This document shows, one piece after another, positions 5,966-17,095 of a DNA stretch of 46,088 bases. The translations under genes and the position numbers were made by a program. This DNA is from Thermincola carboxydiphila (lineage in GTDB: Bacteria; Bacillota; Thermincolia; Thermincolales; UBA2595), in assembly GCA_016841045.1 (NCBI GenBank), contig JAENZX010000029.1, positions 1 to 46,088 of the forward strand, given 5' to 3'. Numbering within the stretch: position 1 is the stretch's first letter; each line of letters begins with the position of its first letter. Below the pieces are notes generated by a model that worked only from the letters and a program-made list of their open reading frames with translations, did no database searches and had not been told where the DNA came from.

Positions 5966-6118
5966 TCAAACACCTTGAACTAATTCCTCGAAAGGCAGTT
6001 CAAATTTTACGCTTATGTCAAGGGAAACTACACCCGATTTTCTTGAATGCCATTCCAAAGCACCCTCTCCCGATACGTGAAATTTACCCACTCTTAAAGA
6101 TTCTAATAGATGATTCAC
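5966..6118 (-). CDS. Possible small protein coupled to the serine recombinase
   Basis: A 50-codon GTG-initiated frame overlaps the recombinase stop codon (GTGA arrangement at 6115-6118). The product contains LLESLRVGKFHVSGEGALEW and ends in SVKFELPFEELVQGV. I do not recognise it. The overlap favours translational coupling, but the frame may instead be element-end DNA that is open by chance. No ribosome binding site is obvious. Confidence 0.3.
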   Translation of the reverse strand: MNHLLESLRVGKFHVSGEGALEWHSRKSGVVSLDISVKFELPFEELVQGV

Positions 6119-7680
6119 ATTGTAAGGTTAAACTGCTCAACATCGGCGTTAAATTCAATGGTGATATCATAATCCTTTTTAACCGATACTTTACTGATAA
6201 GGTAACTGGCTATCATTTTCTTTGCTTCAGGGCTGCTGTTATCAAACATTTCAGCCCATGAAAGAAGCGTGGAATATTTCTCTTTTGCCTCACTCTGCAG
6301 CTTTTTGCTAAAGTCAAGCTCAGTCTGCAACCTTTCTATTTCACTTTTGGCAGTTTTAACACTTTCGGTCTTTTGGGTTATCAGCTTATTTAGAAGCTCC
6401 TGTGGAAATGCACTTGTTCCACTTAAAGCTTTTACCACTTCCGCTTCCAGCGTTGCCAGTTCTTTTGAATCTTGTTCGTAAATCTTTTTTGCATGTGCCA
6501 AGCTTGCTTTGCAATCATTTAACTTGTGATTGTAATAAGTTTCAAAGATTGAGTCTTGGGGTGAATCTTTTAATTTATCGAACAGCTTATGAATAGCTTC
6601 TGTAACGATGCCATCGATGAAATGGGATGTATAGCTTGTCGGGCCATCACAATAATGTCTTTTCCGAGTCTTGTTATAACATACATAAGTGTGGCGCTTT
6701 TTACCTTTTACTGTTCCGTTAGCAATAGTTACTTTTTTGCCGGATGTCGTTGGAGTTAATCTGCCGCCACAATGTCCGCAATAAATATTTCCTGATAACA
6801 GTGATCTACCTTTCGTACACATCGGAAGCGTTCGCTCAACACCGTGTTTCTTGCTCCGCTGTGCAATAAGCTCTTGAGCACGATCAAAAGTTTCTTGATC
6901 CACAATTATTAAATGAGGAAAGACTTCCGACATAGACTCGCCACTTCGCAGGATTCCAAGGTAAGCTACATTTTTTAACATATTAAGAATTGTGGCCGGA
7001 TGCCATGAGTCTCCAGAACGGCTTTTAATACCTTGATTTGTTAAGTACATAGCAATTCGGTGCGTGCCCATACCTTCATACGCATATTTCTGAAAGATTG
7101 TACGTACAACAGAAGACTCATACTCATCCACCACAACTTCATTAACTTCATAATTTTTCTTGTTGAGACGTCCCTGTTTTTCAAGGCGGAACCCATAAGC
7201 ACAAAAGCCACCGCGGAAACGGCCTTCTTGCACAATTTGACCGAGGCGTGTTTTAGTGCGGATAGAGGTTTTTTCGCTTTCGCCCGATGCTTGCCAAAAA
7301 CGGATATAATTCATCAGCTTATCAACATGATTATCAAAGCGTTGCTGACCCTCTTGGGTGCTCCAGACCTCGATACCGTTTTTGACGAACCATTCCACAA
7401 CAAAGGGGGTTTCATCATCACGGCGGCCTAAACGGTCAAACATAAACACTAACAGGATATCGAACCGGCCTGCTAAAGCATCCTTTTTAATTTCCTGTAT
7501 GGCATCACGGTCTTTTGTTGCGACCTTAAATCCGGATATGCCTTTCTCAGAATACTCTTTTACAATCTCCCATCCTTGTGCGTTGGCAAACTCCCGGCAG
7601 GCTTGTTTCTGCATGGGAATATCGTCTTTTTCAACCTGTCCGAGAGTGGAGACTCTATATAAACAACAAACCCTTCTCAT
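6115..7680 (-). CDS. Large serine recombinase (TnpX/TndX type)
   Basis: This 521-residue site-specific recombinase is of normal length for integrases of Tn4451/Tn5397-type elements. The N-terminal resolvase domain has the nucleophile Ser in CCLYRVSTLGQ (near residue 11) and the conserved FDRLGRR motif (near residue 82). A Recombinase domain follows (about 165-290, including GTHRIAMYLTNQGI). A zinc-ribbon has CGHCGG and a later Cys pair (YVCYNKTRKRHYC). The C-terminal coiled coil spans about residues 390-470. It would excise and integrate the surrounding element through short attachment sites. The ATG at 7680 has AGAGAGGAC upstream. It lies downstream of TnpW and the sigma-like gene on the same strand. 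Confidence 0.93.
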   Translation of the reverse strand: MRRVCCLYRVSTLGQVEKDDIPMQKQACREFANAQGWEIVKEYSEKGISGFKVATKDRDAIQEIKKDALAGRFDILLVFMFDRLGRRDDETPFVVEWFVKNGIEVWSTQEGQQRFDNHVDKLMNYIRFWQASGESEKTSIRTKTRLGQIVQEGRFRGGFCAYGFRLEKQGRLNKKNYEVNEVVVDEYESSVVRTIFQKYAYEGMGTHRIAMYLTNQGIKSRSGDSWHPATILNMLKNVAYLGILRSGESMSEVFPHLIIVDQETFDRAQELIAQRSKKHGVERTLPMCTKGRSLLSGNIYCGHCGGRLTPTTSGKKVTIANGTVKGKKRHTYVCYNKTRKRHYCDGPTSYTSHFIDGIVTEAIHKLFDKLKDSPQDSIFETYYNHKLNDCKASLAHAKKIYEQDSKELATLEAEVVKALSGTSAFPQELLNKLITQKTESVKTAKSEIERLQTELDFSKKLQSEAKEKYSTLLSWAEMFDNSSPEAKKMIASYLISKVSVKKDYDITIEFNADVEQFNLTM

Positions 7681-11385: not shown

Positions 11386-12255
11386 TTATTGACCACACGT
11401 TGTTCCGGTAGCAAAGCAGCTTGCACAAAAAGAATAAGTTAATTCGACAGGCTTACCAATAACATCTGTCAACGGACCACTAAGCCTGGCCTCTGGAATG
11501 TCAACCAATATCGGACATGGATAAGCACCGCTCTTGCTAACTGCAATACCATAAGAGCACTGCACAGTATTGCTCTTTTCCGATATTTGTTCCTTTGTGA
11601 CAGCCGGTTCCATACAACCCGCAAATCTTCCTTTGGAATAAGCAGCAATGACTTTAAGACCTGCTATCTGAAGCCCGTGTTCCTCCCCCAGCCATGACCT
11701 GAAGTCGTCTTCAAGTTTTTTTGTTGCACAGCAATCAATACTTCCACCTGATTTGTTCACATAAGCAACCCACGGTCTAACCCCATAAGAGTTTAGGTAT
11801 TTGATACCTTTAACTGTTTTAGCATAACTCCCGGCACCACGAAATTCGTCATTAGTCTGTTGAGTATAACATTCCAAACTTATACGAACACTTAATCCCT
11901 GGGAGTCATATTGACTAAGGTATTTAGCCATTTCATCGTCTATGAGAGTTCCGTTGGTTAGTATGGTAAGAGGTACAATGTGATCCAAAGAGTAATACCA
12001 GTCCAAAAACTGCCGGAGCAAACCCCATAACATCGGTTCCCCTCCGGTGATATAAACGGCTTCGACACCTTCGTCCCGTGCTGTCAAAACCAAATCCATA
12101 CATTCCTCAAGGGATAATTCCCCCGGTCCCTCTTTTCCGGGTGCACACGCAAAGAGGCAATGTTTACAGCTAAGATTACATTGGTATAAAACATGAAGCC
12201 ATAATTCCTTCAATGCTTGGCAAGTGATTGTAGTCAATGCGTATGTATTAATCAT
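11386..12255 (-). CDS. Radical SAM protein with C-terminal cysteine cluster
   Basis: This 289-residue protein has the radical SAM CxxxCxxC motif at residues 26-33 (YQCNLSCKHC), which holds a [4Fe-4S] cluster that cleaves S-adenosylmethionine. The SAM-binding GGEP motif (YITGGEPM) follows. A second cysteine set near the C-terminus (CSYG, YPCP, then FCASCFATGTTC) suggests an auxiliary cluster, as in SPASM/twitch proteins. GGAGGAGC lies four bases before the ATG. It heads the minus-strand gene group up to 16359 in position, although it is its last gene. The substrate is unknown. The adjacent transferases belong to families often found with rSAM/selenodomain proteins, but this protein lacks a clear match to that subtype. 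Confidence 0.85.
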   Translation of the reverse strand: MINTYALTTITCQALKELWLHVLYQCNLSCKHCLFACAPGKEGPGELSLEECMDLVLTARDEGVEAVYITGGEPMLWGLLRQFLDWYYSLDHIVPLTILTNGTLIDDEMAKYLSQYDSQGLSVRISLECYTQQTNDEFRGAGSYAKTVKGIKYLNSYGVRPWVAYVNKSGGSIDCCATKKLEDDFRSWLGEEHGLQIAGLKVIAAYSKGRFAGCMEPAVTKEQISEKSNTVQCSYGIAVSKSGAYPCPILVDIPEARLSGPLTDVIGKPVELTYSFCASCFATGTTCGQ

Positions 12256-12269
12256 TTTAGCTCCTCCAG

Positions 12270-12704
12270 TTAGCTTAATTCTTCAGTGTTTAATGTGATA
12301 TTGTTTTCCTTATGTGGTTGTTGATAATTAAATAGCCAGATAATATTGCCTCCAATCAAAACTGATAGCAAAATAATATCAAAAGCATGAATGGTTATTT
12401 CTGGTAAAAAAATCCCTTCCCTTAGAAGTGTCGCCGGAATCACAGTCAATGCTGCCAAATCCCCTCTATATAAAACCACTAGGCATACAGCCAGAAGTAT
12501 TTCCGGTATAAACAGCCCCCATAATTTACTGCCCCGCTTAATAAAAGCACCGCATACCGCACCTGCGAGAAGTCCTGCAGGGATAATCAGGCCAACGGTA
12601 AATCTCATTTCCAGCCAAATCCATTGGCTTAAAATAAGTGATACAAAATAACCTAGCAATAAACCGGTGAAACCGTACCTGATTATTCTATTTACCCTCA
12701 CCAA
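12270..12704 (-). CDS. Small integral membrane protein of unknown function
   Basis: The 144 residues form four probable membrane helices (for example YGFTGLLLGYFVSLILSQWI, GLIIPAGLLAGAVCGAFI, and FIPEILLAVCLVVLY) with a short polar tail. I do not recognise the family. It overlaps the end of the preceding redox gene (stop 12688) by 17 bases and shares its AAGGGGGGA ribosome binding site region, so GTG 12701 and TTG 12704 are both possible starts. Close coupling to the radical SAM gene (14 bases) suggests a common process at the membrane. Confidence 0.75.
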   Translation of the reverse strand: MVRVNRIIRYGFTGLLLGYFVSLILSQWIWLEMRFTVGLIIPAGLLAGAVCGAFIKRGSKLWGLFIPEILLAVCLVVLYRGDLAALTVIPATLLREGIFLPEITIHAFDIILLSVLIGGNIIWLFNYQQPHKENNITLNTEELS

Positions 12705-13146
12705 TCTCCCCCCTTATTCCAAGCAACTCCTGAATCAAACCTGCCGATACCTTTGTTATCTTTCGGCATTCAATATTTCTGAACCTGTCTGTAATAGACT
12801 GTTTTTTGCGAATTACGCGGCAGCAGGTTGACCCAAAGTGACCGATAAATTTGCTCCTGAAATTTTTGGCAAGTTTCTCGGAGCTTTTTGTCCCGCCTGA
12901 CATGTAACCCAAAACCATTATTCCTCCCGCCAACGCTCCACAAATGCACCCCGACCCAATACCTTGCCGGAAAAATCTACCCATTAAAAATATGTCGTCC
13001 GGAAGACCCAGTTTAAAAACTTCAGAACTGGCCTTTAGTATACTTTCACAACAATTGAATCCCTGCCGGAAAAGTTCCTCGGCACGGCTGGCCAACTGTT
13101 CATCCACACTAGACTGTATGTCCTTTGACTTATCTTGTAACGACAT
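12688..13146 (-). CDS. C_GCAxxG_C_C family redox protein
   Basis: This protein of about 152 residues carries the spaced cysteine pattern of the family: FNCCESIL, then GSGCICGALAGGIMVLG (the GCxCGA core), then TCCRVI. Such proteins are thought to be redox-active or metal-binding. The role is not established. ATG 13146 is chosen over an upstream TTG because GGGAGAAAG lies at the right distance. It overlaps the flippase gene stop by 17 bases, so translation is coupled. Confidence 0.85.
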   Translation of the reverse strand: MSLQDKSKDIQSSVDEQLASRAEELFRQGFNCCESILKASSEVFKLGLPDDIFLMGRFFRQGIGSGCICGALAGGIMVLGYMSGGTKSSEKLAKNFRSKFIGHFGSTCCRVIRKKQSITDRFRNIECRKITKVSAGLIQELLGIRGEIGEGK

Positions 13147-14107
13147 AATTTTCTTTCTCCCTTTCAACTACAAACAATATTCCTCCGAACAGGCTGACAA
13201 TAGTGACAATAACAAAGAACAACAAAGAAAGGGTTACGGCCTGGATTGATGATAACCCCAATCGTCCAAATAGCAGAACATAAGCTCCCTCTCTGACTCC
13301 GAGACCGTTTATGGAAATAGGGATCATTGAAACTGCGGAAATAACTGGAACCATCAAGGTACACTGCCATAAACTGACGTGGTTGATTCCCATTGCCCTT
13401 AGCAGGCAGTAATTAATGGCTACAACCATCATTTGAAACAATACTGAATAAACTATTACCTTTAATATAGCGGCAGGCTTTGACCGGTACGATTGTATTA
13501 CCTTGTTGATTTCCCTCAACCGGATGACAATCTTCTGCCACCACTTCCCCGGGATTCTGGTCAGTGGTCTGAGGAGTGCAGGATTGGCCACAACATAAGT
13601 TAATAACAAGCAAAGAATAAAGAAATATATTATTGGATACAAAACTTTACCAATTAAAACCCGATTTGGTATCAGAGCAACTGTCGCCGGTAGAACCAGC
13701 CCTATAGTGGCCAGCACCCTCTCCACAATGACCGAGGCAGCTGCTTCATCACTGTTGCCAATTCTTTTTCCAACCTGATATATCCGCATCAGGTCGCCCC
13801 CAATACTGGAGGGGAGGAAATTATTCATGAAAAGCCCGACAAAATAGTATTTAGTAAGCACATAGATAGATACAATCCAACCCCGTGCTGTTAATAACAA
13901 CTGCCACTTATAAGCGCTTAATATTACAGCTCCTATAGTAAGCAACACGGATATTCCAAGGGAAACCCTGTGTAACCTCGCCAAAATACCAATAACTTCC
14001 GAAAAATCTGTTTTACCGGCCAGTAAGTACAGCAAAGTTACGGTTATAATCAGTTTAATGATAATTCCGTTAAATCTTTTTATTGCTGGACTGTTATCAG
14101 GAAGCAT
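13130..14107 (-). CDS. Flippase-like membrane protein (lysylphosphatidylglycerol synthase TM family)
   Basis: This is a polytopic membrane protein of about 325 residues with seven to eight helices. The family signatures are visible: NNFLPSSIGGDLMRIYQVGK near residue 95, then VIVERVLATIGLVLPA, and PISINGLGVREGAYVLLF near residue 270. Relatives (UPF0104/YbhN) move or handle lipid-linked substrates and often sit beside glycosyltransferases, as here. ATG 14107 has GAGG nine bases upstream; a GTG at 14116 is an alternative. It overlaps the TVP38-type gene by 11 bases. Confidence 0.88.
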   Translation of the reverse strand: MLPDNSPAIKRFNGIIIKLIITVTLLYLLAGKTDFSEVIGILARLHRVSLGISVLLTIGAVILSAYKWQLLLTARGWIVSIYVLTKYYFVGLFMNNFLPSSIGGDLMRIYQVGKRIGNSDEAAASVIVERVLATIGLVLPATVALIPNRVLIGKVLYPIIYFFILCLLLTYVVANPALLRPLTRIPGKWWQKIVIRLREINKVIQSYRSKPAAILKVIVYSVLFQMMVVAINYCLLRAMGINHVSLWQCTLMVPVISAVSMIPISINGLGVREGAYVLLFGRLGLSSIQAVTLSLLFFVIVTIVSLFGGILFVVEREKENYVVTR

Positions 14108-14804
14108 TCTGGTCACCCTCTTCCACCAGACGTCCCTCCAGCTTCTTTTTGATGATTAAGCTCAAAACCAGCAACGAAGCAACTCCGCAAAATACCCAGA
14201 GGCGATATTTGGCCCCACTGGTTATGTTTTCTCCGAGAATTGAGTATACAATTGTAGCAGGCAGTTGTCCTAACCCGGTTGTCCAGAAAAACTGCCACAG
14301 GCTCATATTGGTGAGACCACCTGCGTAACTTATTAGATCAAACGAAATTACCGGTATTAACCGAGCGATTAAAACGGCATATCTACCGTAACGGTTGAAA
14401 AACCTGTCCGATATTTCCAGGGCCTTTTTGCCGACCATGCGTTCAACAAGAGGACGGCCAAACCACCTAGCCAGGTAAAAACAAATAACAGCGCCAATCA
14501 TTGCCCCTGACCATGAAATCAGTGCACCCCAAGCCCATCCCCATATCCACGCATTGGCAAATGTTATAACAAATGCCGGAAGCGGAGCAGCCAACGCCTG
14601 TAGCACCATGAGTGCCATGGAGACGATTGGCCCCCAGATACCAAAACCGGCAAGATACTGTTTCATTCCCTTAATATCCGCTCTGGCAAGTATCCCGGCA
14701 GCCCTGTTCACCTGATCCTTTAGTCCCGGAACCAGGAAGTAGGCCAAAACCAAAACTGCCAAAGTACTTATTCGAAATAGCCATTTCTTTGTTGTTTGAT
14801 TCAT
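14097..14804 (-). CDS. TVP38/TMEM64 (DedA-like) membrane protein
   Basis: This 235-residue membrane protein shows the VTT/SNARE-associated domain: PAFVITFANAWIWGWAWG, then GAMIGAVICFYLARWFGR, and the motif RYAVLIARLIPVISFDLISY followed by AGLT-like AGGLTNMSLW. Members are proposed lipid scramblases or transporters. The start at 14804 is supported by GGGAGGG five bases upstream. The longer frame to 14882 has no such site. It lies between the lipoprotein and the flippase gene and is coupled to the latter. Confidence 0.9.
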   Translation of the reverse strand: MNQTTKKWLFRISTLAVLVLAYFLVPGLKDQVNRAAGILARADIKGMKQYLAGFGIWGPIVSMALMVLQALAAPLPAFVITFANAWIWGWAWGALISWSGAMIGAVICFYLARWFGRPLVERMVGKKALEISDRFFNRYGRYAVLIARLIPVISFDLISYAGGLTNMSLWQFFWTTGLGQLPATIVYSILGENITSGAKYRLWVFCGVASLLVLSLIIKKKLEGRLVEEGDQNAS

Positions 14805-14887
14805 ATAACCCTCCCAAAAACAGAAAGGCATCATTATGTAAATAATTAATGCCCTTCGTTCCAAAAAACTGTTATAATTCACATTTG

Positions 14888-15589
14888 CTATTTTTTAATT
14901 TTCAATGTTACTGCAACCAAAGTGCCATCGGCCGGTAGAACCTCTTTGTTTCCGATGAACTTAACTTCATTCCTTTTTTCAACTGCTCCATAGGTATAAT
15001 TAGCATTACTTGTAATACCTACAGGGCAACTGTCCAGGCAAATGAGGCATCCGGTCTTTTTGTCCTGAGCGTTTTTCAGGTTACCGCCAAAGCGTATATC
15101 GACAGCCTTACCGTTGCTGTCCTTGATAACTTCATCAAGTTTGTAGTCCTTATTGGCACCAGTCCATGTTACGGTGACATCTAAAGCATCACCGCCAACA
15201 TGGGTTTTTTCTTTGTTTTGAAGAGTCATATTATTTCCGGCTTTGGCCCCAATTTCCATGAGATCGTTGTAAAAATCCTCAGGTTTGGCAAAAGCTCTGA
15301 AAACCGCTTTTTCTCCGTTACTTTCATCGGCAAAAACAACTGCATGGCGGGTACCTTCAAAGAGATATTTTCCGTTAACCTGGGCTAAGAAACTAACTGT
15401 TCCTGCTTGTTTATCAACTTTTAACGGATTGGACTTGGTAAGTCCGTTCACCGTTTCTTCCTGATTAGTTGTAGATTGTGCTTGGCTTGATGACTGATCT
15501 TTTATTTCGGTCTTGGCCCCACAACCAGCGGCCAATAACAACCCTACTGCAACTACGGTCAGCATAATTAATTTCAGTACATTTTTCAC
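14888..15589 (-). CDS. YdjY-like secreted lipoprotein
   Basis: A signal peptide (KNVLKLIMLTVVAVGLLLAA) ends in lipobox LAAGC, so the protein is probably lipid-anchored outside the membrane. After a Ser/Gln-rich linker, residues 60-230 resemble the YdjY domain: NPLKVDKQAGTVSFLAQVN, then DFYNDLMEIGAKAG, and a cysteine set GCLICLDSCPVG. The cysteines suggest metal or cluster binding. GTG 15589 is chosen because AAGGGGG lies seven bases upstream. The ATG at 15616 would lie on the wrong side of this site. It starts just upstream of the TVP38-type gene on the same strand. Confidence 0.75.
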   Translation of the reverse strand: MKNVLKLIMLTVVAVGLLLAAGCGAKTEIKDQSSSQAQSTTNQEETVNGLTKSNPLKVDKQAGTVSFLAQVNGKYLFEGTRHAVVFADESNGEKAVFRAFAKPEDFYNDLMEIGAKAGNNMTLQNKEKTHVGGDALDVTVTWTGANKDYKLDEVIKDSNGKAVDIRFGGNLKNAQDKKTGCLICLDSCPVGITSNANYTYGAVEKRNEVKFIGNKEVLPADGTLVAVTLKIKK

Positions 15590-15678
15590 AAGCATCCCCC
15601 TTAGAAAAATTTTCATTTTTAATTATATTACAGGCTGCTTGTCATTACCAATCAAACTTTTTAATAATGTTTATGTAG

Positions 15679-16359
15679 TCAATAAATTTTCGTTATAATG
15701 TTCGTTCTTTCAAGATATGCTTTGGTATTAGGTGCATGAACAGGCGAGGTACTGTCCTGCAATTGTGAATGCAAATAAGCTAAATCATCAAATGTATCCA
15801 CATCCCTCAGTGTCGGAAGCCTATAACAAGATAGTCCCAAAGCCTTGATACGCTTAAGAGTGTGGGCCAGCACTTTGCCAGTACCCCAGCTAATCCCTTC
15901 AAATAAAATAGGTTGAGGTTTTTTAAAACCTATCAGGTAATAACCTCCGTCATAAGCTGGTCCAATACAAAGTTCATGGTTGTCCAGGGATTTAACCGCG
16001 TGAACAATATAATCCTCACTCAAAGCCGGAATATCTGCACCAACGAGAATGACTTTGGTTTTTCCCAAATTCGAAATATATCTGGCCGCATTTAGCATTC
16101 TTTCCCCAAGATCGTTTCCTTCCTGTGGAAAAATACTTAGCTTAGGGGGTATCAGGTCACGAATAATATTCTCCGACTCAGTTGGAGTAAATGAAACAAA
16201 AAGACTGTAGCCCGACTTTTCAATAGATGCTACAATATCAAGGAAAAAGCATTTATACAACTCGGCACACTCTTCCGGCGTTAAGAAGCTGGCAAGCCTG
16301 GTTTTAACAAGCCCGGGAATAGGAGCCTTAGCGAAAATAACTATTGCTACGTTTTTCAT
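15679..16359 (-). CDS. TIGR04282-type glycosyltransferase (DUF2064)
   Basis: This 226-residue transferase has a nucleotide-sugar-type fold: N-terminal AIVIFAKAPIPGLVKTRLA (nucleotide binding), then ILVGADIPALS with the metal-binding Asp, and IGPAYDGGYYLIG. The family is annotated as rSAM/selenodomain-associated transferase 1, or arsenosugar biosynthesis glycosyltransferase. The start at 16359 has AGGAGG at 16364-16369. The much longer open frame upstream is a shadow of the divergent gene. It faces away from its usual partner at 16412, with only 52 bases between them holding both promoters. Confidence 0.9.
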   Translation of the reverse strand: MKNVAIVIFAKAPIPGLVKTRLASFLTPEECAELYKCFFLDIVASIEKSGYSLFVSFTPTESENIIRDLIPPKLSIFPQEGNDLGERMLNAARYISNLGKTKVILVGADIPALSEDYIVHAVKSLDNHELCIGPAYDGGYYLIGFKKPQPILFEGISWGTGKVLAHTLKRIKALGLSCYRLPTLRDVDTFDDLAYLHSQLQDSTSPVHAPNTKAYLERTNIITKIY

Positions 16360-16411
16360 CTTTTCCTCCTGGAATGTTTTACACATGTAATAAAATGCGG
16401 GGGTAGTTTTC

Positions 16412-17095
16412 ATGCAATTAAAAGTCAGCGTTGTAATACCGGTGCTCAATGAATCGAGCGGGATTCTCAAAACTCTTGAGAATCTCCTTGATATAGCGGA
16501 AATTAGTGAAATAATCGTGGTTGATGGTGGCAGTACTGATGATACAGTAGAAGTTGCATCCACATACGCCAAAGTCATTTCTGCCAAAAAAGGCAGGGCC
16601 CGCCAAATGAACGAGGGTGCCCATGCGGCAACAGGCCAAGTCATTCTGTTCCTCCACGCTGATTCAATTATATCACCTGATAGCATTAAGAAAATAGGCC
16701 AAGCCATAATTCGGGAGCAGGTGGTAGGGGGATGTCTAAAACTGGTATTTGATGACAGATCCCTGATTTTCAGATTGATTGCGTTGGGTTCCAATCTACG
16801 GGCCAAATTCCTAAAAATATTCTTTGGCGATCAGGGAATTTTCGTAAAGCGGGATGTCTTTATTTCAACTGGGGGATTTCCGGAACTGCCGATTATGGAA
16901 GAATGGGAGTTCTGCCGGCTGCTTAAATCACAGGGGAAGACCCTGCAGCTTAACTGCCCAATTATTACATCCAGCCGGCGATTTCACAAACATGGTATTT
17001 GGAAAACTCTTTTTTTGATGCATAAGCTAAAATTACTGTATATCCTGGGAGTTAGCCCAAACAAACTAAAGCAAATTTACCCTGATAATAACTAA
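16412..17095 (+). CDS. TIGR04283-type family 2 glycosyltransferase
   Basis: This 227-residue GT2-fold enzyme has an N-terminal VSVVIPVLNES, nucleotide-sugar motif IIVVDGGSTDDTV, an FLHADS motif (DxD equivalent) and FGDQGIFVKRDVF. The family (rSAM/selenodomain-associated transferase 2) is nearly always paired with TIGR04282 proteins. In cyanobacteria the pair is linked to arsenosugar synthesis; no ArsM-like methyltransferase is present here, so the product may differ. It is transcribed opposite to the rest of the cluster and has a terminator overlapping its stop. Confidence 0.92.
   Translation: MQLKVSVVIPVLNESSGILKTLENLLDIAEISEIIVVDGGSTDDTVEVASTYAKVISAKKGRARQMNEGAHAATGQVILFLHADSIISPDSIKKIGQAIIREQVVGGCLKLVFDDRSLIFRLIALGSNLRAKFLKIFFGDQGIFVKRDVFISTGGFPELPIMEEWEFCRLLKSQGKTLQLNCPIITSSRRFHKHGIWKTLFLMHKLKLLYILGVSPNKLKQIYPDNN

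Follow-up and report, generated by a model that had tools for sequence, protein, structure and literature searches.

The window, a stretch of 46,088 nucleotides from Thermincola carboxydiphila, carries a cassette of eight genes (Table 1). All eight open reading frames were confirmed in place and are intact. Seven of them lie on the minus strand and either overlap or are separated by less than 100 bp. The TIGR04283 gene is on the plus strand, 52 bp from the divergent TIGR04282 gene, and the layout is therefore seven same-strand genes and one divergent gene. The families of seven genes had been named correctly, while the eighth, which encodes a membrane protein of 144 amino acids, had been left unnamed. 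Judged from the sequence, an internal ATG at position 14804 is a likelier start of the VTT gene than the listed one. The GC content of the window shifts at about 22 kb, and the idea that the cassette is cargo of the neighbouring conjugative element was not adopted.

Table 1. Genes of the cassette, with positions in the window, strand and basis of assignment.
Gene product	Position	Strand	Basis or remark
Radical SAM enzyme, apparent divergent ArsS sister	11386..12255	-	PF04055, ArsS profile match, tree
Small membrane protein without family	12270..12704	-	144 aa; recurs in related clusters
C_GCAxxG_C_C family putative redox protein	12688..13167	-	PF09719, TIGR01909
Flippase-like membrane protein (LPG_synthase_TM)	13130..14116	-	PF03706, TIGR00374
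VTT/TVP38 (DedA superfamily) membrane protein	14097..14804	-	PF09335; listed ORF start 14882
YdjY-domain lipoprotein with CLICLDSC cysteines	14888..15616	-	NF040466; lipobox read from sequence
TIGR04282, CofC/MobA-like nucleotidyl/glycosyltransferase	15679..16359	-	202.2 bits vs cut-off 134
TIGR04283, GT2 glycosyltransferase	16412..17095	+	251.6 bits vs cut-off 182

Curated cut-offs are passed by the TIGR04282, TIGR04283, YdjY and C_GCAxxG_C_C members. The C_GCAxxG_C_C protein scores 73.9 bits with PF09719 and 66.0 bits with TIGR01909 (cut-off 47.4), and the YdjY lipoprotein scores 155.5 bits with NF040466 (cut-off 50). In two relatives the slot of the YdjY lipoprotein is occupied by a tandem rhodanese lipoprotein. 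The flippase-like protein matches PF03706 with 140.9 bits and TIGR00374 with 67.1 bits (cut-off 43.2), and the VTT protein matches PF09335 with 105.3 bits. Assignment of the VTT protein to the undecaprenyl phosphate transporter UptA was rejected at 55.2 bits against a cut-off of 250. The small membrane protein has no match in a Pfam search, and homologues of it are present in three other such clusters (L153, L157 and L165).

The radical SAM enzyme matches PF04055 with 71.1 bits (cut-off 29.5) and has a CX3CX2C motif (C26/C30/C33) as well as five cysteines in its C-terminal part (C233, C247, C277, C280 and C287). No NCBIfam family is assigned to it at the NCBIfam cut-offs, and the match to a known unrelated family that would have spoken against the original prediction was not found. 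The enzyme is not ArsS as defined by TIGR04167, with which it scores 77.7 bits against a cut-off of 300 over residues 11-217 only, and the C-terminal DUF3641 (PF12345) is absent from its Pfam listing at an E value of 1. Its relation to ArsS is seen in profile comparisons. When eight proteins of the window type were aligned by hhalign with 12 ArsS proteins, the match was full-length, with a probability of 99.7 over 272 columns and 26% identity. For the C-terminal comparison the radical SAM core was removed before the profile search; a profile of the C-termini of four Bacillota window-type proteins then found 23 of 24 ArsS C-termini at E values of 0.0091 or below, interspersed with just two of the 91 C-termini from other radical SAM proteins. 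In the reverse direction, the top non-ArsS matches of the ArsS C-terminal profile were the same four Bacillota proteins, at E values of 8e-7 to 7e-5. Window-type enzymes and ArsS have in common the C-terminal cysteine pattern C-x13/14-C ... C-x2-C-x6/7-C-G. By its sequence, then, the enzyme is homologous to ArsS along its whole length, though divergent, and had not been recognised as such before.

Window-type enzymes form a separate, well supported clade with a deep split from ArsS. A careful tree places the Bacillota members as sister to ArsS with moderate support (90/64), and in a larger, quick tree the same grouping is weak (support 41). In the careful tree, proteobacterial proteins with the motif ELWLH/CxxCFxxGxxC stand apart from those of Bacillota, and against ArsS their C-termini reach an hhalign probability of only 4.6, so the proteins with this motif possibly do not make up one subfamily, and a single subfamily defined by the motif alone is not proposed.

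It is very improbable that the enzyme is a SPASM-type peptide or cofactor maturase which lies by chance beside a glycan operon. Its predicted structure resembles SkfB, BlsE, SuiB and anSME, but the mean pLDDT is only 57, with residues 204-289 below 50, and the fold matches are therefore generic to radical SAM proteins. Rv1681-like, mycofactocin and sactipeptide maturases are among the top NCBIfam scores, but these are core-only matches far under the cut-offs (94.4 against 380, 83.2 against 265 and 77.8 against 625), and the neighbourhood is conserved with genes of the arsenosugar type. Another alternative is adenosylation of a carbon substrate such as an isoprenoid, in which case a membrane glycolipid free of metalloid would be assembled by the flippase and the transferases. 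Hopanoid synthesis, in which adenosylation by HpnH is followed by a nucleosidase and a glycosyltransferase, offers a parallel. The flippase-like protein does score 53.3 bits with HpnL but the cut-off is 195.65, so that it was rejected as HpnL; HpnH is outside the best 25 of 82 families listed for the radical SAM enzyme in the NCBIfam search. This alternative is considered unlikely, as the comparison of C-terminal halves puts the enzyme closer to ArsS than to the set of 91 other radical SAM proteins.

The set of genes recurs in three other genomes (G002, G087 and G152) with the order reshuffled. Genes for VTT, flippase, C_GCAxxG and TIGR04283 proteins lie beside the window-type radical SAM gene in all four complete neighbourhoods, which come from three families, and TIGR04282 is present in three of the four. 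The controls were 64 loci, 0.97 Mb in all, that have a radical SAM gene without TIGR04282 or TIGR04283. There the C_GCAxxG, YdjY and rhodanese models had no match, the VTT model had one and the flippase model two, one of the latter loci being itself a window-type copy. The genes thus occur together beyond chance, as the original prediction supposed, and the cassette is a conserved functional unit. That it is a decayed or accidental neighbourhood beside mobile DNA is largely refuted: a relaxase, a coupling protein and a recombinase are indeed encoded on the contig, but the reading frames are intact, the set is found again elsewhere in shuffled order and the partners are rare or absent in the control loci. 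Among 398 genomes in phylum samples, TIGR04283 occurs in 27, ArsS in 11 and the window-type enzyme in five, four of which have TIGR04283; ArsS and the window-type enzyme are never found in the same genome. Four of the 27 genomes with TIGR04283 have the ArsS sister and another four have a BioB-like enzyme. A class-level survey around G152, which covered four genomes only, added nothing new, and a Marinobacter plasmid carries a frame-broken copy of the enzyme gene without TIGR04283.

The radical SAM enzyme is of a different type in several related cassettes. In one genome (G114), ArsS, TIGR04169, a small membrane protein, YdjY, VTT, TIGR04282, TIGR04283, C_GCAxxG and flippase genes form a cluster that equals the set of the window with the radical SAM gene exchanged for ArsS and TIGR04169. 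Four cassettes with a BioB-like radical SAM protein (G118, G137, G139 and G342) resemble the window in having VTT, flippase, TIGR04282 and TIGR04283 in every case, the flippase of G137 being a fragment, and C_GCAxxG in three; they differ in the type of radical SAM protein. The two BioB-like proteins tested score 26 to 52 bits with the BioB model against a cut-off of 225. A further genome (G284) encodes an ArsM-radical SAM fusion next to VTT, flippase and TIGR04283 genes; the fusion was rejected as a window-type protein on account of the ordinary SPASM domain (PF13186) in its radical SAM part and of its other place in the tree. Nitrosomonas mobilis has, in a row, TIGR04283, ArsM, a more distant relative of the enzyme in ArsS's place beside ArsM, and a TVP38/FAD oxidoreductase. 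This row matches an Acinetobacter plasmid cluster with ArsS, the ArsM proteins being 61% and the TVP38/oxidoreductases 57% identical.

Arsenosugar biosynthesis clusters comprise ArsM, ArsS, TIGR04282 and TIGR04283, often with TIGR04169 and TVP38, and TIGR04282 and TIGR04283 are already called arsenosugar genes in NCBI annotation. The cassette is like these clusters in its TIGR04282 and TIGR04283 proteins, both over cut-off, and like the ArsS cluster of G114 in its VTT, YdjY, C_GCAxxG, flippase and small membrane proteins. The enzyme is like ArsS in its CX3CX2C core, its full-length profile match and its C-terminal cysteine spacing, and unlike ArsS in its TIGR04167 score, the lack of a Pfam-detected DUF3641 and its separate clade. 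Unlike the known clusters, the cassette has no TIGR04169, ArsS is replaced by the divergent relative and the genome has no ArsM. The link to arsenosugars made in the original prediction is stronger than could be seen then, given that the radical SAM enzyme is an ArsS relative and that true ArsS accompanies the same module elsewhere. The radical SAM enzyme ArsL of arsinothricin synthesis, whose gene adjoins arsM, also forms a C-As bond; as described in PMC8552651, it has 428 amino acids and only three conserved cysteines and transfers an aminocarboxypropyl group. The window enzyme, with five further conserved C-terminal cysteines, is set apart from ArsL by that description only. The E. coli ydjXYZ-ynjABCDE stretch brings together two DedA-family (VTT) proteins, YdjY, an AhpD-like protein and the sulfurtransferase YnjE, and no radical SAM, TIGR04282, TIGR04283, flippase or C_GCAxxG gene is annotated in it. 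No description of such a cassette was found in the literature searched, whose coverage excluded most subscription journals.

There is no arsenic gene within the cassette itself, and the absence of an ArsM-like gene noted in the original prediction extends to the whole 4.16-Mb genome (no match; rated 100% complete), which has acr3 on another contig. ArsM likewise has no match in G114 despite its bona fide ArsS cassette. The G002 cassette has arsM together with ArsA- and ArsD-like reading frames within a few kb, and acr3 about 10 kb off. The lack of ArsM would suit a cassette that handles selenium, tellurium or antimony, in which the ArsS-like enzyme would join a deoxyadenosyl group to selenium or tellurium and the rhodanese, YdjY and DedA proteins would serve selenite or tellurite handling. 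With ExtH of a selenite/tellurite reduction operon, the G002 rhodanese lipoprotein reaches 57.4 bits, and a DedA protein is linked to selenite resistance in the title of a reference cited in PMC10127716; DedA and rhodanese partners are elsewhere connected with selenite and UndP flipping. The ExtH match is under its cut-off of 200, however, and ArsM adjoins related cassettes in Nitrosomonas and G002 and, in G284, forms one protein with a radical SAM domain beside the partners; this explanation is improbable.

The best explanation, with a probability of about one half, is that the cassette encodes a variant arsenosugar/arsenolipid pathway, with the divergent sister enzyme taking the place of ArsS. 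The missing ArsM, the low TIGR04167 score, the deep split from ArsS and the moderate support for the sister grouping speak against it. In oxo-arsenosugar synthesis, arsenic is adenosylated by a radical SAM enzyme (PMC12159101). From the gene content we infer the reactions, substrates and products, chemistry included, as follows. The radical SAM enzyme would cleave SAM and attach its 5'-deoxyadenosyl moiety to a trivalent arsenic compound to give an arseno-nucleoside, which would lose adenine and then be activated. The nucleotidyltransferase-like TIGR04282 protein and the GT2 protein TIGR04283 would place the arseno-ribose onto a lipid or glycerol carrier, and the flippase-like and VTT proteins would move the product or carrier across the membrane. 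Redox or thiol steps may be carried out by the C_GCAxxG protein inside and by the YdjY or rhodanese lipoprotein outside. With no ArsM in the genome, the arsenical used would be inorganic arsenite or a methylarsenical taken up from outside; perhaps the ArsS sister acts on imported methylarsenicals or on another metalloid. A bolder and rather doubtful proposal is that one export and glycosylation module works with interchangeable radical SAM enzymes (ArsS, its sister, the BioB-like type and the ArsM-fused SPASM type), each of which would form a different carbon-metalloid bond, to make organo-metalloid glycolipids. The version in the window would then be methylation-free and adenosylate inorganic arsenite or another metalloid directly.

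The enzyme looks like an unnamed relative of the pathway's key radical enzyme in a conserved gene set of an anaerobic bacterium. Genomes without ArsS leave TIGR04282 and TIGR04283 orphaned, and in some of these genomes the ArsS sister could be the radical SAM enzyme that is missing. DedA, flippase, C_GCAxxG and YdjY/rhodanese proteins of unassigned role would be tied to one pathway, and the cassette gives the E. coli ydjXYZ-ynjABCDE operon a possible setting. The arrival of arsenosugars in membrane lipids becomes testable in an anaerobe and, if the variant pathway is real, organic arsenic compounds may come from more microbes, and by more routes, than are now annotated.

The cassette lies on contig C33 (46,088 bases), one of the 75 contigs of a 4.16-Mb draft genome, and its five genes from VTT/TVP38 (DedA superfamily) to the radical SAM gene overlap or have 14 bp between them. 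Curated cut-offs are passed by TIGR04282 (CofC/MobA-like transferase), TIGR04283 (GT2 glycosyltransferase), TIGR01909, TIGR00374 and the YdjY domain. The conjugative-element genes nearby encode a T4SS coupling protein, a MobL relaxase, a TraG/VirB4-like ATPase and an M23 peptidase, and GC content goes from about 0.35 to 0.52 around 22 kb of the window.

Features of the cassette and its flanks; minus-strand genes are listed in their order
Feature	Position (nt)	Strand	Remark
Cassette	11386-17095		eight ORFs
TIGR04282		minus
YdjY lipoprotein		minus
VTT/TVP38		minus
Flippase-like		minus
C_GCAxxG_C_C		minus
Small membrane protein		minus
Radical SAM		minus
TIGR04283		plus	start 52 bp from minus-strand run
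ORFs of 153, 187 and 188 aa	18572-20803		membrane-like; no Pfam match
Conjugative-element genes	22177-46062
Serine recombinase	6115-7680
Mutator-type transposase	196-1413

The window-type enzyme (the cassette's radical SAM protein and its close relatives) occurs in five of 398 genomes of the phylum, from three families and including the window's own (E 1e-35 or better); in a search of 61 genomes, two of the same family encode proteins 61-64% identical. Complete neighbourhoods were compared for the window, G002 (L006), G152 (L097) and G087 (L098), and in all four the radical SAM, VTT, flippase, C_GCAxxG and TIGR04283 genes occur together. TIGR04282 is present in three and absent from the 19 kb looked at in L098, and the lipoprotein slot is taken by YdjY in two of the neighbourhoods and by a tandem rhodanese lipoprotein in the other two. 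Gene order and strands vary among the four, and therefore the gene set, not its arrangement, is what is kept. The radical SAM gene of G087 is split over two frames, and the fifth copy (G005) is on a 3.6-kb contig with an adjoining flippase gene. Control loci, 64 radical SAM loci lacking TIGR04282 and TIGR04283, gave no matches to C_GCAxxG, YdjY or rhodanese, one to VTT and two to flippase, one of which was the G005 copy again in a different record.

No named NCBIfam family fits the radical SAM enzyme, whose top scores cover the core only and fall well under cut-off: 94.4 for the Rv1681 model (cut-off 380), 83.2 for mycofactocin (265) and 77.7 for ArsS (300), the arsenic-adenosylating enzyme of arsenosugar synthesis. 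Judged by sequence, the enzyme is a divergent relative of ArsS. Profile-profile alignment of eight window-type proteins (four from Bacillota, four proteobacterial) with twelve ArsS proteins extends over 272 columns (probability 99.7, identity 26%) and takes in the C-terminal cysteines, which are spaced C-x13-C then C-x2-C-x6-C-G in the window type and C-x14-C then C-x2-C-x7-C-G in most ArsS. Because the radical SAM core is common to any two such proteins, the comparison was rerun on C-terminal halves alone (24 ArsS, 91 other and eight window-type). With the Bacillota window-type profile, 23 of the 24 ArsS scored at or below E 0.0091 and two of the 91 others were interspersed; in the reverse direction, the four Bacillota window-type proteins headed the non-ArsS matches of the ArsS profile. 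In a careful tree built from 50 proteins, the Bacillota window-type enzymes come out as sister of ArsS (support 90/64), a grouping that is weak in a quick tree of 123 proteins (support 41). Evidence against comes from the proteobacterial proteins, which stood apart from the Bacillota ones in the careful tree and whose C-termini matched the ArsS profile poorly. Both interspersed C-termini are from Gastranaerophilales (L009, L022), and at L022 none of the cassette genes was recognised near the radical SAM gene. Marinobacter adhaerens plasmid pHP-187 (L214) carries a lone, unannotated relative of the window enzyme, split over two frames, with TIGR04283 absent nearby.

The same module accompanies other radical SAM enzymes. 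TIGR04283 was found in 27 of the 398 genomes (25 above the curated cut-off), ten of which have ArsS (nine inside the fetched stretch, one on a separate contig), four the window-type enzyme, four a BioB-like enzyme in the cassette (G118, G137, G139, G342) and one (G284) an ArsM-radical SAM/SPASM fusion 3 kb away; eight lack all of these enzymes nearby by the models used. ArsS is present in 11 of the 398 genomes, never together with the window-type enzyme. The clearest comparison is G114, which combines ArsS, TIGR04169, a small membrane protein, YdjY, VTT, TIGR04282, TIGR04283, C_GCAxxG and flippase. VTT (6/9), C_GCAxxG (4/9) and flippase (2/9) are not universal partners of ArsS in the nine ArsS-bearing loci fetched. 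BioB-like enzymes, found in 18 of 398 genomes at E 1e-50, have no fixed tie to TIGR04283, and in G345 one such gene adjoins an ArsS gene.

Related arrangements were seen at several loci. About 25 kb of G345 (L196, L197) contains, besides several BioB-like genes, a 679-aa ArsM-ArsS fusion and another ArsS with TIGR04169. A weakly TIGR04282-like gene (59-72 bits) lies within a few kb of non-cassette BioB-like genes in six of nine such genomes fetched (L198, L200, L201, L204, L205, L206). The G284 fusion is a single 790-aa frame (L157, 11795-14164). Its neighbours are VTT, flippase and an open frame that encodes both a small membrane protein and an Fe-S/CCG-type protein. At L018, L034, L045 and similar Thermodesulfobacteriota/Myxococcota loci, proteins of about 1,040-1,070 aa join radical SAM, ArsM-like and DUF5714 parts, and L034 has TIGR04282 and TIGR04283 side by side.

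Arsenic genes accompany some of these cassettes. In G002, an ArsM (arsenite methyltransferase) gene above cut-off, a putative ArsD and two putative ArsA ORFs (by reading) lie a few kb upstream, with acr3 farther out. In Nitrosomonas mobilis the genes run TIGR04283, ArsM, radical SAM, TVP38/FAD oxidoreductase, which parallels a cluster on an Acinetobacter plasmid whose annotation reads arsS, TVP38/FAD oxidoreductase, DUF547, TIGR04283, TIGR04282 and methyltransferase (ArsM 61%, TVP38/oxidoreductase 57% identical). The window's genome has the arsenite exporter gene acr3; speaking against an arsenic link, two genome searches found no ArsM there. ArsM was likewise not found by search in G114, which has a true ArsS cassette, and matches occurred in 12 of 14 genomes searched (nine above cut-off); ArsM is thus not strictly coupled even to ArsS.

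In oxo-arsenosugar synthesis, arsenic is adenosylated by a radical SAM enzyme, as stated in a passage of PMC12159101 citing the ArsS study. By homology, the window enzyme would do likewise, and later steps might lead from nucleoside through free sugar, sugar phosphate and nucleotide sugar to glycoside. Six cassettes without radical SAM (L149, L150, L154, L156, L160, L161) have an APH-like kinase adjoining TIGR04282/TIGR04283, and L154 has a nucleoside hydrolase, which an ORF in L150 resembles; Pfam tests covered the kinase and hydrolase of L154 alone. Such neighbours would fit the nucleoside-to-glycoside sequence. Five of the six also have a YnjBCD-like (by reading) ABC transporter. The flippase-like and VTT proteins suggest that the product or its carrier is lipid-bound; a passage of PMC10127716 describes DedA superfamily proteins as flippases of UndP or, putatively, of phospholipids.

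The arsenosugar link suspected in the original prediction is strengthened, the radical SAM enzyme being an ArsS relative and the same module occurring with true ArsS. An exported lipid-linked glycan, also proposed there, is a possible product. That the cassette acts on arsenic can be given even odds. A probability of about 0.85 goes to the narrower statement that the genes make up one functional cassette whose radical SAM enzyme is related to ArsS. The cluster itself is a real, conserved and as yet unannotated variant of a known cluster type.
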